A stretch of 64,000 bases of DNA from Aliikangiella coralliicola (GTDB lineage Bacteria > Pseudomonadota > Gammaproteobacteria > Enterobacterales > Kangiellaceae). How positions within the stretch are numbered: position 1 is the stretch's first letter; the number at the start of each line of letters is the position of its first letter. Position numbers and translations under genes: made by a program. Below, one piece after another: positions 13,673 through 26,793 of the stretch. The stretch is from positions 62,001-126,000 of the forward strand of contig NZ_ML660164.1 in assembly GCF_007004725.1 (NCBI RefSeq). Reading direction: 5' to 3'. Under the pieces are notes generated by a model. The model ran no database searches. It saw only the letters and a program-made list of their open reading frames with translations, and was not told the DNA's origin.

Positions 13673-14677
13673 TTATCCGCCTACGGAAGCAAGGTGAGGT
13701 GTGCCACCCGGATTATTATCGTGAAGAAAATGTTGTTTGCGTTTGTTTTCGAGCAACCGACAAAGTGTTTGTTTAAGTTCCTCTCGCTGTGACTCGCTTT
13801 GCAAAAGGTGTCGAACGCTAAAACCGTGCTCGCCAAATAAGCACAAGTGAAAGTCACCAACTGAAGAAACTCTCAGTCGATTACAGGTATTACAAAAATC
13901 TTTAGAGTAGGGCGCAATGACGCCAAAGGTTCCCTGATAGTCAGGGTGAACATACTCAATCGCCGGTCCGGCACCTGGCTCTCTCAGTTTCTCCGTCCAG
14001 CCGTTAGCAAACAAATAGTTTTTAAGGACCTGGGCGGAGACGTGATATCGATTGAAATAATCATGGTTATCGCCGGTTTGCATCAACTCGATAAAGCGCA
14101 TACTCAGTTTCGATTTTTTGAGCAGACTGGTGTACTCACCAAGTTGGTGGGAGTTGACATTTTTTAGTAATACAGCGTTTAACTTCACCCGTTTGATCGA
14201 TGAATTTAATGCGATATCAACACCGGCTAATATTTCTTTGAGACGATTGTGTCCAGTCAAACTATGGAACAGTTTGGGATCGAGGCTATCGACACTAACA
14301 TTTAAATGAGTAAGTCCTGCGCTCGCCCAGTTCTGAATTCTTTCTTTTAATTTATAACCATTGGTTGTCATGGCAATTTGTTTAATGCCGGAAATTGCCT
14401 TAATGGTCTTAATGATTTCATCGAAATCTTTGCGAACGCTTGGTTCGCCACCAGTCAATCTAATTTTCCAGGTACCCAATTCTGCGAATGCAGAGACGAG
14501 ATTTTTGATTTCTGGTAGCGTTAAAAAGTGTTTCTTTGAATCGCATTGATAGCCATCAGGCAGACAGTAGTCGCAGGAAAAATTACAGACGTCTGTTACC
14601 GACAGGCGCAAATACGGAAACTGGCGACCTTGCGGGTCGATTAATTGATAACTCAAACTAAGCTCCTTTCCAAACAC
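13673..14677 (-). CDS. moaA: GTP 3',8-cyclase MoaA
   Basis: MoaA is the radical-SAM enzyme of the first step of molybdopterin synthesis. The N-terminal cluster motif CNFSCDYC is in LRLSVTDVCNFSCDYCLPDG, followed by IRLTGGEPSVRKD. The C-terminal second cluster is represented by CNTCNRLRVSSVGDFHLCLFG. The chain ends in Gly-Gly, required in MoaA for SAM cleavage. The length of 334 is typical. It is the first gene of moaA-moeA. No molybdate-responsive leader (Moco riboswitch) was recognised upstream. Confidence 0.97.
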   Translation of the reverse strand: MFGKELSLSYQLIDPQGRQFPYLRLSVTDVCNFSCDYCLPDGYQCDSKKHFLTLPEIKNLVSAFAELGTWKIRLTGGEPSVRKDFDEIIKTIKAISGIKQIAMTTNGYKLKERIQNWASAGLTHLNVSVDSLDPKLFHSLTGHNRLKEILAGVDIALNSSIKRVKLNAVLLKNVNSHQLGEYTSLLKKSKLSMRFIELMQTGDNHDYFNRYHVSAQVLKNYLFANGWTEKLREPGAGPAIEYVHPDYQGTFGVIAPYSKDFCNTCNRLRVSSVGDFHLCLFGEHGFSVRHLLQSESQREELKQTLCRLLENKRKQHFLHDNNPGGTPHLASVGG

Positions 14678-15261
14678 GGGAGGTCAGTCAATTTCTCAAC
14701 TAACCCTGGCAGTTTTAACTGCGGCAAAGTAAACCTATCTAGCTTATTTAATAAACCCTGGTCTATTAAATCCTTATCTATTTCACCATCGATTAAACCG
14801 GTGAATAAGCAGACTTAGTCCAACAATGCTCGGAGTCATGACAGCTTCGTCAATGCAACGAGGCTGTATAACATCTTACAGTAATCAAAATAACGAAACA
14901 ATGAATCAAGGCAAAACGGTATTAGCAAACGATAAACTGTCCAATATTTGTCGTTTCAAGGTGCTAATAGCGGCGACAACGAGGCCAATTATCAAAAGTA
15001 TAGCTGCATACAGTATATTATTTTGATATTGGCTATTTTATTAAACTCGCACAAAACTATGTTGATGTGGATCAAGGTCAGTTTATGTGAACAGAGTAAA
15101 TTACACCTGCATCCTGGTGGTGCCAGTGTGGTTAAGAAGCTGTGCCTGTCTCTTCTGAAGGCGTTTGTCTTAAAACTCAATCACTCGAGCATGAAGCTTG
15201 GTGAATTTGAACTTGCATAATGACAGGTTACGAAAAGTTTCAATATAACCGTTATCGTTAG
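14678..15261. other. intergenic region upstream of moaA
   Basis: Nearly 600 bases lie between moaA and the inverted-repeat element. Short overlapping ORFs here have no ribosome sites or recognisable products. The half next to moaA (14678-14830) repeats phrases such as TTAAACC/TCTATT without a clear operator. No tRNA or recognised RNA is present. Confidence 0.4.
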
Positions 15262-25412: not shown

Positions 25413-25702
25413 TATTGAACTGAATAAAAGCAACCGCTGAAATACCCCACTGTCAGAGTAAGTTTAAGGTTTCGAAAATTAGAATAATATAGGGTAGCAT
25501 CGTCAACAAATATATTTTCTTTATGAGTTCGATAGAGATATGCTTGGTCATATTTTTTATCTCTTTGAGAGAATTTTTTATTGGATAAAGTAAGGTTTTT
25601 CGTATTAATTGAAATGTTAGTTAGCAGTTTTGAGATGAGTCGCAGCAAGTTCGGATTAGTTTTTGTCAATGTTACTTCGGGATGTTACTTCTACTATTTT
25701 AT

Positions 25703-25730
25703 TTGACAAAAGATATATTCGGCGTATTAT
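25703..25730 (+). promoter_or_regulatory. sigma-70 promoter of the small-gene region
   Basis: A perfect -35 TTGACA (25703-25708) and a TATTAT -10 (25725-25730) are separated by 16 bases. It faces the 11-codon ORF, the hairpins and the terminator downstream. Confidence 0.7.
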
Positions 25731-25760
25731 TGCGCGCACGCCGCTTAATTTCTCTGTTTG

Positions 25761-25823
25761 CAAGTTGATGATTGTATTTGACAGATTGATTATTGTATTT
25801 GACCGGTTGGTTATTGTATTTGA
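25761..25823 (+). repeat. three tandem 21-bp units after the promoter
   Basis: Units at 25761-25781, 25782-25802 and 25803-25823 share the core TTGATTATTGTATTTGA with few changes. The 21-base period equals two helical turns, so the same face would be presented three times. They lie 30 bases past the -10 and could be an array of protein sites or part of the transcript. Confidence 0.85.
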
Positions 25824-25886
25824 GAAATCGGCACATTAATTTTGTTTATCTAGAATTTTTAATTCATATTAAGAGGAGTATTTGAA

Positions 25887-25922
25887 ATGCCAGGTTTTAA
25901 TAAAAGAAAACAATTTAAATAA
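25887..25922 (+). CDS. 11-residue basic ORF, possible leader peptide
   Basis: AGAGGAG (25872-25878) stands eight bases before an ATG opening an 11-codon frame, MPGFNKRKQFK, ending in TAA. Five of eleven residues are Lys or Arg. The frame runs straight into two competing hairpins and a terminator, the layout of a leader-peptide attenuator; it could equally be a small mRNA or regulatory RNA. Translation is supported only by the ribosome site. Confidence 0.5.
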   Translation: MPGFNKRKQFK

Positions 25923-25969
25923 ACCTTTCAAATGCTTAATGCTCGAAAGGTTTGAAGATACCTTTCGAG
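25921..25969 (+). promoter_or_regulatory. mutually exclusive hairpins (attenuator-like)
   Basis: AAACCTTTC (25921-25929) can pair with GAAAGGTTT (25945-25953). Alternatively CTCGAAAGG (25942-25950) can pair with CCTTTCGAG (25961-25969). Both stems are perfect nine-mers and share 25945-25950, so only one can form. The first stem begins within the stop codon of the 11-codon ORF, where a ribosome could choose between them. Confidence 0.6.
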
Positions 25970-25987
25970 TCAGAAATCACTTCTTTG

Positions 25988-26020
25988 AAGCCCTGACTGG
26001 AAATCCAGTCAGGGCTTTTT
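25988..26020 (+). terminator. strong rho-independent terminator
   Basis: AAGCCCTGACTGG and CCAGTCAGGGCTT form a perfect 13-bp stem with an AAAT loop and a T tail. It follows the competing hairpins and precedes three small genes. Confidence 0.93.
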
Positions 26021-26169
26021 CGTTTGGTACTTCAGAAAACTAATAGAATGGCTAGCCAAATTAACTGGCAGAATATTGGTGACAGTGAGTTAATGGTCGC
26101 GTCGAAATATCTGATTGATTATTCATGACCATTCATATTTACCCATATTTTACAAAGGAGAAAGTTAAC

Positions 26170-26304
26170 TTGAAAACAAATAACAAAACTAAAATGAGGA
26201 CACGGTCCGGTTACAAAACAGAACGGGTACTGTTGTTTAAACAATTAAGGAAGAAATCTAATGGAAATAAACTTATTCAGAGAGACAATCGAGTATGTGG
26301 ATAA
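26170..26304 (+). CDS. putative 44-residue basic protein
   Basis: A TTG at 26170 with GGAG nine bases upstream opens a 44-codon frame that is rich in Lys, Arg and Asn (KTNNKTKMRTRSGYK at the N-terminus). An ATG at 26194 would shorten it to 36. It overlaps the next frame by 44 bases in a different register. I do not recognise it, and the support is the ribosome site and position. Confidence 0.35.
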   Translation: MKTNNKTKMRTRSGYKTERVLLFKQLRKKSNGNKLIQRDNRVCG

Positions 26305-26428
26305 TGGACGTCGTTTTTTGTGCGATTGCCCAGGTGGGTATTTTGTTTATCTACATTATTGGCGAAATAAGTACGAAAAGGTGATTAAGAAAATAAACCA
26401 ATTCAATCGGTTCTATCATGAAGTGTAA
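26261..26428 (+). CDS. 55-residue small protein of unknown function
   Basis: AAGGAAG at 26247-26253 precedes the ATG by seven bases. The 55-residue product begins MEINLFRETIEYVDNG, has a CDC pair (C22, C24) followed by PGGYFVYLHYW, then a basic C-terminal half (KYEKVIKKINQFNRF). It is aromatic-rich and lacks a signal peptide. It ends 12 bases before the next gene, so they are probably co-translated. No family is recognised. Confidence 0.6.
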   Translation: MEINLFRETIEYVDNGRRFLCDCPGGYFVYLHYWRNKYEKVIKKINQFNRFYHEV

Positions 26429-26440
26429 AAAGGAGATAAT

Positions 26441-26692
26441 ATGCCTAAAAGTAAACGTAAGTCTAAAAGCAAAAGCTCTTCAAACAAGAATAGCGTACCG
26501 CGATTGCAGACTGCGCCCAGGAACCCTTATGCAAACCACCCATTGATGAGAAAGAGTGCTGTTCATCAAAAATCTCGTTCTGCTCAACGATCAGCTACCC
26601 GTCGCGAGACCAAAAAAATGGCTCGCGACTGGGCTTCAATTCAAACTTTGGAATTAATGATTAAACTCATCATAAAAATCATCTGGCGCTAA
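26441..26692 (+). CDS. 83-residue highly basic small protein
   Basis: AAAAAGGAG precedes the ATG closely. The product opens with a Lys/Ser-rich run (MPKSKRKSKSKSSSNK), then a segment with NPYANHPLMRKSAVHQKSR and RSATRRETKKMARDW, and ends in a short hydrophobic helix. The middle segment reminds me of small conserved hypothetical proteins of gammaproteobacteria and phages (NP-x-x-HP-x-M-R-K-x-x-x-H-x-KS), but I cannot name a family. Nucleic acid binding is plausible from charge alone. Confidence 0.7.
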   Translation: MPKSKRKSKSKSSSNKNSVPRLQTAPRNPYANHPLMRKSAVHQKSRSAQRSATRRETKKMARDWASIQTLELMIKLIIKIIWR

Positions 26693-26793
26693 GCGACAGG
26701 ATCATTTACGCTTACCTGTGTTGAAATATCATTCGCCTAATTTCATACGGCCTGAATTTAAACCGAATATTTTACTTTAATCATTAAGTCAAT

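Follow-up and report, generated by a model that had tools for sequence, protein, structure and literature searches.

A conserved leader attenuator upstream of KGGxH genes: a probable translation-failure switch for a candidate ribosome-rescue factor in Aliikangiella coralliicola

What does a locus control when a complete leader-type regulatory region is followed by nothing but three very small open reading frames (ORFs)? Such a locus lies on the forward strand of the 64,000-nucleotide (nt) stretch of Aliikangiella coralliicola DNA analyzed here (the window; contig NZ_ML660164.1, positions 62,001 to 126,000). An initial annotation, made from the letters of the window, had seen in it the layout of a leader-peptide attenuator, followed by a small operon encoding tiny basic proteins. 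Our analysis suggests that the region is probably a switch that responds to failing translation and governs an alternative ribosome-rescue factor, and the locus a stripped-down form of a gammaproteobacterial translation-emergency operon. The candidate rescue factor is encoded by the 83-codon ORF (26441-26692), a member of a sequence family that we named KGGxH; the name GFKTER, given to a second small protein, was also coined in this analysis. Both the KGGxH family and the RNA switch recur in related bacteria and have no match in the family libraries searched, and the KGGxH protein appears to be a new type of rescue factor. Below, G numbers denote genomes and L numbers loci, and G000 is the genome carrying the window (7 Mb).

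The regulatory region opens with a sigma-70-type promoter, TTGACA-16-TATTAT (25703-25730; all features of the locus are on the plus strand), which agrees with the consensus at 11 of 12 positions. By eye, a similar promoter stands ahead of the leader in G001, G002, G004, G005, G042, G067 and in a second copy of the locus in G000. Between promoter and leader lie three imperfect repeats (TTGxTxATTGTATTTGA; 25764-25828), 23-nt copies at a spacing of 21 nt, with no counterpart visible by eye in the printed upstream stretches of the relatives. The leader ORF (ATG at 25887 to TAA at 25922) has 11 codons (MPGFNKRKQFK) and is preceded by AGAGGAG. Stem A (segments 1:2; CCTTTC, 25924-25929, with GAAAGG, 25945-25950) starts one base past the leader stop codon and is mutually exclusive with stem B (segments 2:3; CTCGAAAGG, 25942-25950, with CCTTTCGAG, 25961-25969). 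An antiterminator (segments 3:4; GTCAG, 25969-25973, with CTGAC, 25993-25997) in turn excludes the intrinsic terminator (segments 4:5; 25988-26020), a perfect 13-bp stem with a T run that was also matched by the terminator tool (25987-26018). Promoter, triplicate repeat, 11-codon ORF with a strong ribosome site and terminator were thus all present as initially annotated, the repeat copies being imperfect. Of the two competing 9-bp hairpins proposed there, stem B does have 9 pairs and excludes stem A, but the latter is only 6-7 bp long; the antiterminator pairing had been overlooked. The fold of the window leader RNA is 6.6 standard deviations below that of dinucleotide shuffles, none of which (0 of 200) was equally stable.

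Segment 1 of this five-segment attenuator follows directly upon the short leader ORF. A ribosome translating the leader to its stop codon would cover segment 1, stem B (2:3) would form, segment 4 would be left free for the terminator, and the operon would be off. If the leader is left unfinished, through damaged or drugged ribosomes or missing tRNAs, pairings 1:2 and 3:4 would form instead and the polymerase would read through. The leader had been noted as rich in Lys and Arg but devoid of a run of any single residue. It does not belong to the amino-acid-biosynthesis type, since its peptide sequence shows no conservation among leaders. The leader most likely reports whether its translation reaches the stop codon.

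That the attenuator is conserved as a structure is nearly certain. The leader pattern occurred in 4 of 40 family genomes (G000 included), a single time in each and always heading this locus or operon, and did not occur in the reversed control; it precedes rtcB, an RNA ligase gene, in all five rtcB loci printed. Leader ORFs of 9-16 codons occupy the same place in most relatives carrying the leader. In one set, a leader ORF with a ribosome-binding site lies right before the hairpins in all 12 leaders, and in a wider set an acceptable leader ORF was found in 14 of 23 loci, with none convincing in the rest, including L125 and L086. A covariance model was trained on eight leaders and applied to a selection of 115 sources with much overlap among them. 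Outside the training set it matched 13 loci at E ≤ 6e-5, each lying ahead of a KGGxH gene and oriented like it (matches above approximately E 1e-4 include opposite-strand or non-operon places, and only stronger ones were counted). The competing hairpins are conserved in relatives, a point on which the initial annotation had made its reading depend. No Rfam match was obtained in ten leader loci.

The 13 new and 8 training leaders were realigned (21 leaders; E ≤ 5e-5) and scored for an OFF structure (2:3 plus 4:5) and an ON structure (1:2 plus 3:4). In the OFF structure 97.9% of the cells are paired and double changes occur at 10 of 16 pairs, and none of 500 shuffles reached any of five measures. 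The corresponding values for the ON structure are 96.1% and 4 of 11 pairs, the five measures being reached by 0, 3, 0, 41 and 1 of 500 shuffles; with the 8 training leaders this structure scored modestly above shuffles (14/500). Both sides have changed at 8 of the 9 pairs of stem B and at 2 of the 5 pairs of the antiterminator, in which 100% of the cells are paired. Both alternative foldings are thus kept by paired changes, and the proposed attenuator anatomy before a small operon was borne out. Free folding, which uses no alignment, was performed with the ribosome mimicked by masking the first 12 nt past the leader stop codon. Under the mask, stem B or an equivalent formed in every leader of two sets (12/12 and 14/14). 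In the unmasked nascent RNA, stem A plus the antiterminator was the minimum-energy fold in 6 of 12 leaders (three of them near-identical, the window not among them), and stem A formed in 10 of 14 leaders of the other set. The window leader could reach the ON state only if stem A formed first. The structure of the attenuator rests on conservation and covariation; its regulation we infer, and it very likely acts as a regulator.

What the attenuator would regulate is best seen in relatives, where the operon order is leader, rtcB, (GFKTER), (a 311-aa gene) and KGGxH, so that the client would be rtcB-GFKTER-311aa-KGGxH or part of it. The 44-, 55- and 83-codon ORFs of the window had been correctly located, but the small operon behind the attenuator is not simply a set of tiny basic genes: its ORFs are the remains of this longer operon. 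The 44-codon ORF (26170-26304; TTG start), which overlaps the start of the next ORF, is the GFKTER gene. Counting G000, 5 of 80 genomes have a match to it at E ≤ 3e-4. In G001, G002 and G004 the homologs are flanked by rtcB and the 311-aa gene, and a further one occurs in G067; in all four, GFKTER is short and extends past the start of the 311-aa gene. The 55-codon ORF (26261-26428) appears to combine the N-terminal part of the 311-aa protein with approximately its last 19 residues: residues 1-38 match the start of that protein (E 0.001-0.002), while the match of residues 37-55 to its extreme C-terminus (E 6.2) is supported by position alone. We read it as most likely a decayed copy of the 311-aa gene that has lost its interior; a search of G000 with the protein of a relative turned up no 311-aa gene. 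The predicted structure of the 311-aa protein is confident (pLDDT 89.3) but had no PDB match at E ≤ 0.001; the best value was E 0.044, and most of the listed matches were weak acetyltransferase-like ones. Among the three ORFs of the window, only GFKTER and KGGxH look intact.

The decay of rtcB is stepwise: its frame is open and intact in G001, G002, G004, G005 and G029, internally deleted in G042, absent in G067 and gone in the window and in G009. The leader has been retained in all of these, and its persistence where rtcB is deleted in part (G042) or missing (G067, G009 and the window) indicates that KGGxH is the retained client. The window locus thus appears to be a stripped-down, partly decayed copy, in which rtcB was lost, the 311-aa gene reduced, and the leader and KGGxH kept. 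Among nine named loci with rtcB but a weak model match or none, inspection by eye showed the leader shape in L099, L109, L092, L098 and L126; L104 and L106 begin with the 311-aa gene, their operon head not being identified, L100 starts inside the operon, and L116 gave no rtcB motif. A second decayed copy of the operon is present at G000:C14:122003-122976 (L179), with a promoter and leader (model E 1.7e-12), rtcB pieces that are broken by eye, a GFKTER ORF (a weaker match, E 0.007) and, where the contig ends, the first part of a 311-aa gene.

Homology searches combined with synteny placed the 83-aa protein in a recurring family, many of whose genes lie behind rtcB; the 55-aa ORF is best read as the shrunken gene described above. 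KGGxH proteins have 45-108 codons and share the core PRNPxAxxPLLRKGGxHxKSxxAxR. Matches to the 83-aa protein, its own genome included, were found in 12 of 40 family, 15 of 295 order and 27 of 369 class genomes, and in a named public collection 54 KGGxH loci were confirmed out of 101 stretches with the pattern. The family occurs in many Gammaproteobacteria and some Betaproteobacteria (L112, L115, L120-L122), its named hosts including Hahella, Saccharophagus, Cellvibrio, Marinomonas, Competibacteraceae, Thiotrichaceae and Neisseriaceae. As noted initially, the small proteins match no known family in the libraries scanned: for the window protein no model passed the cut-off in Pfam, NCBIfam or PHROGs, and the same was true of further members (seven in Pfam, five in NCBIfam) and of 20 cores in Pfam. 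With one member as query, there was no match at E ≤ 0.01 in 72,556 plasmid and 50,697 phage records. Joining 48 loci from one genome set with the 54 named ones and removing 9 duplicates gave 93 distinct KGGxH loci. Upstream of KGGxH, rtcB and/or the 311-aa gene was counted in 50 of these (24 with rtcB only, 20 with both, 6 with the 311-aa gene only), although some of the rtcB matches may be remnants, as in L041; neither gene was counted in the other 43. Six of the 93 loci have less than 1.4 kb of upstream sequence and five have an rtcB match elsewhere in the locus.

The ends of many KGGxH genes carry the signature of a nonstop mRNA. When the region from core to stop codon was compared with 100 synonymous shuffles, its strongest hairpin was more stable than those of 99 or more shuffles in 45 of 93 genes; among an equal number of control gene ends taken from these loci, the same held for 3 (mean z -2.34 vs. 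-0.29). By a simple rule, 36 genes have a terminator-like site ahead of the stop codon (some of these sites being weak or closely related to each other), 1 has it across the stop, 1 only after it and 55 have none. Synonymous shuffles predict 5.7 before the stop. In the window, a hairpin (GTCGCGAG/CTCGCGAC; 26601-26629) lies within the 83-codon ORF past the conserved core and before the stop codon; none of 100 synonymous shuffles was equally stable, and its z against dinucleotide shuffles is -5.2. At the DNA level its arms are identical in L003, L004, L005, L007, L037 and L041, changed by one base in L002 and altered in L006. The genes of the rescue factors ArfA and BrfA are described as having an in-frame terminator or RNase III site (PMC6299226, PMC6881298), and a terminator or cleavable hairpin before the stop codon is what the KGGxH family has as well (45/93 and 36/93). 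The G000 genome encodes tmRNA and two full-length release-factor genes, and no ArfA match was found in it.

From this design of the mRNA, the basic character of the protein and its gene neighbours, KGGxH is best read as a rescue factor. Its mRNA would be ended or cut in-frame by its own hairpin, and the protein would be made from a nonstop mRNA. As long as tmRNA works, the product would be tagged and destroyed; once trans-translation is overwhelmed, the truncated basic protein would accumulate and its Lys/Arg-rich part would enter the empty mRNA channel. A release factor recruited by KGGxH would then free the stuck ribosome, as with ArfA and BrfA. If this is true, a double-controlled operon with RtcB both frees and repairs the broken translation machinery, tying nonstop rescue to RNA repair, and KGGxH is a concrete, testable family, recognisable by in-frame terminators and with a translation-failure sensor before a number of its operons. 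Further small-protein rescue systems are possible but hard to find by sequence, according to a review (PMC8012679).

Each half of the proposed system has known counterparts. The leader resembles PA5471.1, which heads armZ-prfH in Pseudomonas aeruginosa: both combine a short leader ORF (13 codons there) and a terminator with an RtcB-family gene downstream, and in PA5471.1 a release-factor-like gene stands behind the RtcB-like gene and an early stop or stalling leads to expression (PMC13041342, PMC12057347, PMC3516279). A stop at leader codon 3 is reported to raise ArmZ, and in the model of those authors complete translation of the leader leads to the terminator (PMC13041342). This likeness concerns the described logic. 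The clients are not the same: in P. aeruginosa, armZ goes together with prfH and feeds into the MexXY pump, whereas here a different RtcB is joined to GFKTER, the 311-aa protein and KGGxH. A second RtcB type stands by eye behind leader-like ORFs of 12-13 codons in L185 (G000:C4), L186 and L187, reminiscent of PA5471.1 and followed in L187 by a 215-aa gene; the leader of this type in G000 did not match the covariance model.

Like ArfA (PF03889), KGGxH is small and basic, carries a terminator or RNase III hairpin within the frame, ahead of its stop codon, and occurs in a host with tmRNA, but it lacks the KGKGS-Y core and has different gene neighbours in the loci seen. Membership in ArfA was rejected (no PF03889 match; hhalign probability 0.3). 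Of 369 class genomes (apparently one and the same draw), 6 have ArfA, 27 have KGGxH and none has both, which with an expected overlap of 0.4 is not a significant mutual exclusion. BrfA of Bacillus subtilis likewise has an in-frame Rho-independent terminator and a nonstop-mRNA product tagged by tmRNA; unlike KGGxH it is reported from a subset of Bacillaceae, mainly Bacillus, and held in that report to have probably evolved independently, and the accessible text mentions no rtcB operon (PMC6881298). ArfT of Francisella is also a small protein, with a KKGGSTNKK stretch, but has 40 aa and, as described, neither in-frame terminator nor RNase III site (PMC6299226); KGGxH proteins, with their greater length and many in-frame hairpins, do not fit that definition. 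Burroughs and Aravind widened ArfT to a broadly distributed family, with which KGGxH may overlap (PMC6514570). The RtcB2-PrfH ribosome repair operon similarly sets an RNA ligase beside a factor for damaged ribosomes (PMC9223846, PMC6514570), but PrfH belongs to the release-factor family and is a peptidyl hydrolase, whereas the KGGxH sequences seen lack GGQ and KGGxH would need to recruit such a factor. Membership in an RtcB-PrfH operon was rejected, no release-factor match being found among the scanned ORFs of the window and operons. In the best reading, KGGxH would work like ArfA and BrfA under a switch of PA5471.1 type without being a detectable ArfA member. Full-text searches of open-access papers brought up no report that we recognised as the KGGxH family or as an attenuator on an rtcB-KGGxH operon, and the accessible parts of papers on ArfA and ArfB in P. 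aeruginosa and of a survey of 15,259 genomes do not mention KGGxH (PMC13159725, PMC11633108).

Several observations weigh against this picture of a switch and its rescue factor. The alignment of 21 leaders was fitted to the OFF structure and favours the OFF count, and on the 8 training leaders the OFF structure did not rise above shuffles (covariation score reached by 128/500). The ribosome-free nascent fold retains stem B in 6 of 12 leaders, the window included, and in 3 of 14 of the other set, so that the ON state of such leaders depends on folding kinetics. In a class-wide sample searched with stricter filters at E ≤ 0.01, the model matched 16 of 339 genomes, and among the seven of these that were examined a KGGxH operon was present only at the matches in G000 and G507; those in G453, G610 and G403 showed no operon gene, and the leader matches in G311 and G468 precede HNH genes. 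The small number of KGGxH operons found class-wide implies that the model, trained on one family and its neighbours, covers only part of the range. As to the candidate rescue protein, solved structures gave only chance matches. Many of the 93 genes are related and their counts not independent; more than 5 of 100 shuffles were as stable in 36 of them, and the 55 without a terminator-like site include the window gene, whose hairpin lacks a T run and would depend on cleavage. With so many genes lacking a hairpin signal, nonstop expression may not be universal. Another backup exists in G000, which encodes an ArfB-sized protein and, near its second rtcB, a release-factor piece (G000:C4:75077).

Could the same attenuator serve a different protein function? 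KGGxH might be an rRNA- or tRNA-binding helper of the RtcB ligase, and its hairpins operon-end terminators overlapping a loosely constrained C-terminus. The 50 of 93 genes sitting behind rtcB or the 311-aa gene fit such a role, as do the charged small proteins that, according to Burroughs and Aravind, accreted to RtcB-release factor systems (PMC6514570). Neither gene, however, was counted upstream in 43 of 93 loci (four of these with an rtcB match elsewhere in the locus and four with short upstream sequence), the window and G009 have kept leader and KGGxH without rtcB, and sites before the stop in 36 of 93 genes, against 1 of 93 only after it, are unexpected for ordinary gene ends; we regard a helper as unlikely. 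An ordinary amino-acid or unknown-peptide operon, a toxin-antitoxin pair or a phage remnant with chance hairpins would account for small basic ORFs without a match in family libraries, but is very improbable in view of the covariation and synteny, the lack of a plasmid or phage record match (one member as query) and the remnant-like appearance of the 55-aa ORF.

The leader might also sense something narrower than a general failure of translation, namely damaged or uncharged tRNAs reading NAN codons (Lys, Asn, Gln, Tyr and others). The tRNAs read by these codons are frequent targets of anticodon nucleases. NAN codons make up 96 of 193 leader codons against 64.3 expected from a neighbouring gene (20 groups, one leader each, only leaders with a clear ORF being counted), and z is 3.7 against the 36.8% NAN in early codons of 63 control genes. 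In P. aeruginosa, moreover, loss of the tRNA CCA enzyme acts via PA5471.1 codons 3 and 4, Gln and Phe (PMC13041342). Yet the leaders share no conserved codon, A-rich codons are frequent near gene starts in any case, the early codons of other genes explain part of the enrichment, and His, Glu and Asp are not enriched, whereas Phe is, which leaves such a specific sensor rather doubtful. A broader proposal, that KGGxH is a widespread rescue-factor family under double control by a NAN-rich-leader attenuator (a sensor of cleaved tRNAs or damaged ribosomes) and a nonstop mRNA, joined to RtcB repair and the 311-aa protein, is put forward tentatively as a possibility. The translation-failure switch controlling a rescue factor remains the reading that we consider probable.

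Some further elements were found beside those discussed above. Attenuators of the same shape lie in L180 (G311:C106; E 3e-7) and L181 (G468:C143; E 3e-5) upstream of HNH-endonuclease-like genes rather than rtcB or KGGxH, the HNH match being profile-tested for L181 only. Other rtcB genes (L013-L018) have upstream TGGCAC-N-TTCGC-like sites instead of the attenuator, which we take to be similar to sigma-54 promoters, as for RtcR control. The sole Rfam match in the window is a molybdenum cofactor riboswitch of a known family (RF01055, 73.9 bits; 14647-14847, minus strand). Downstream of KGGxH, the window carries a FemAB-like gene (PF04339; 26794-27942, plus strand), and a similar protein is encoded downstream in L006, which is from the same genus.

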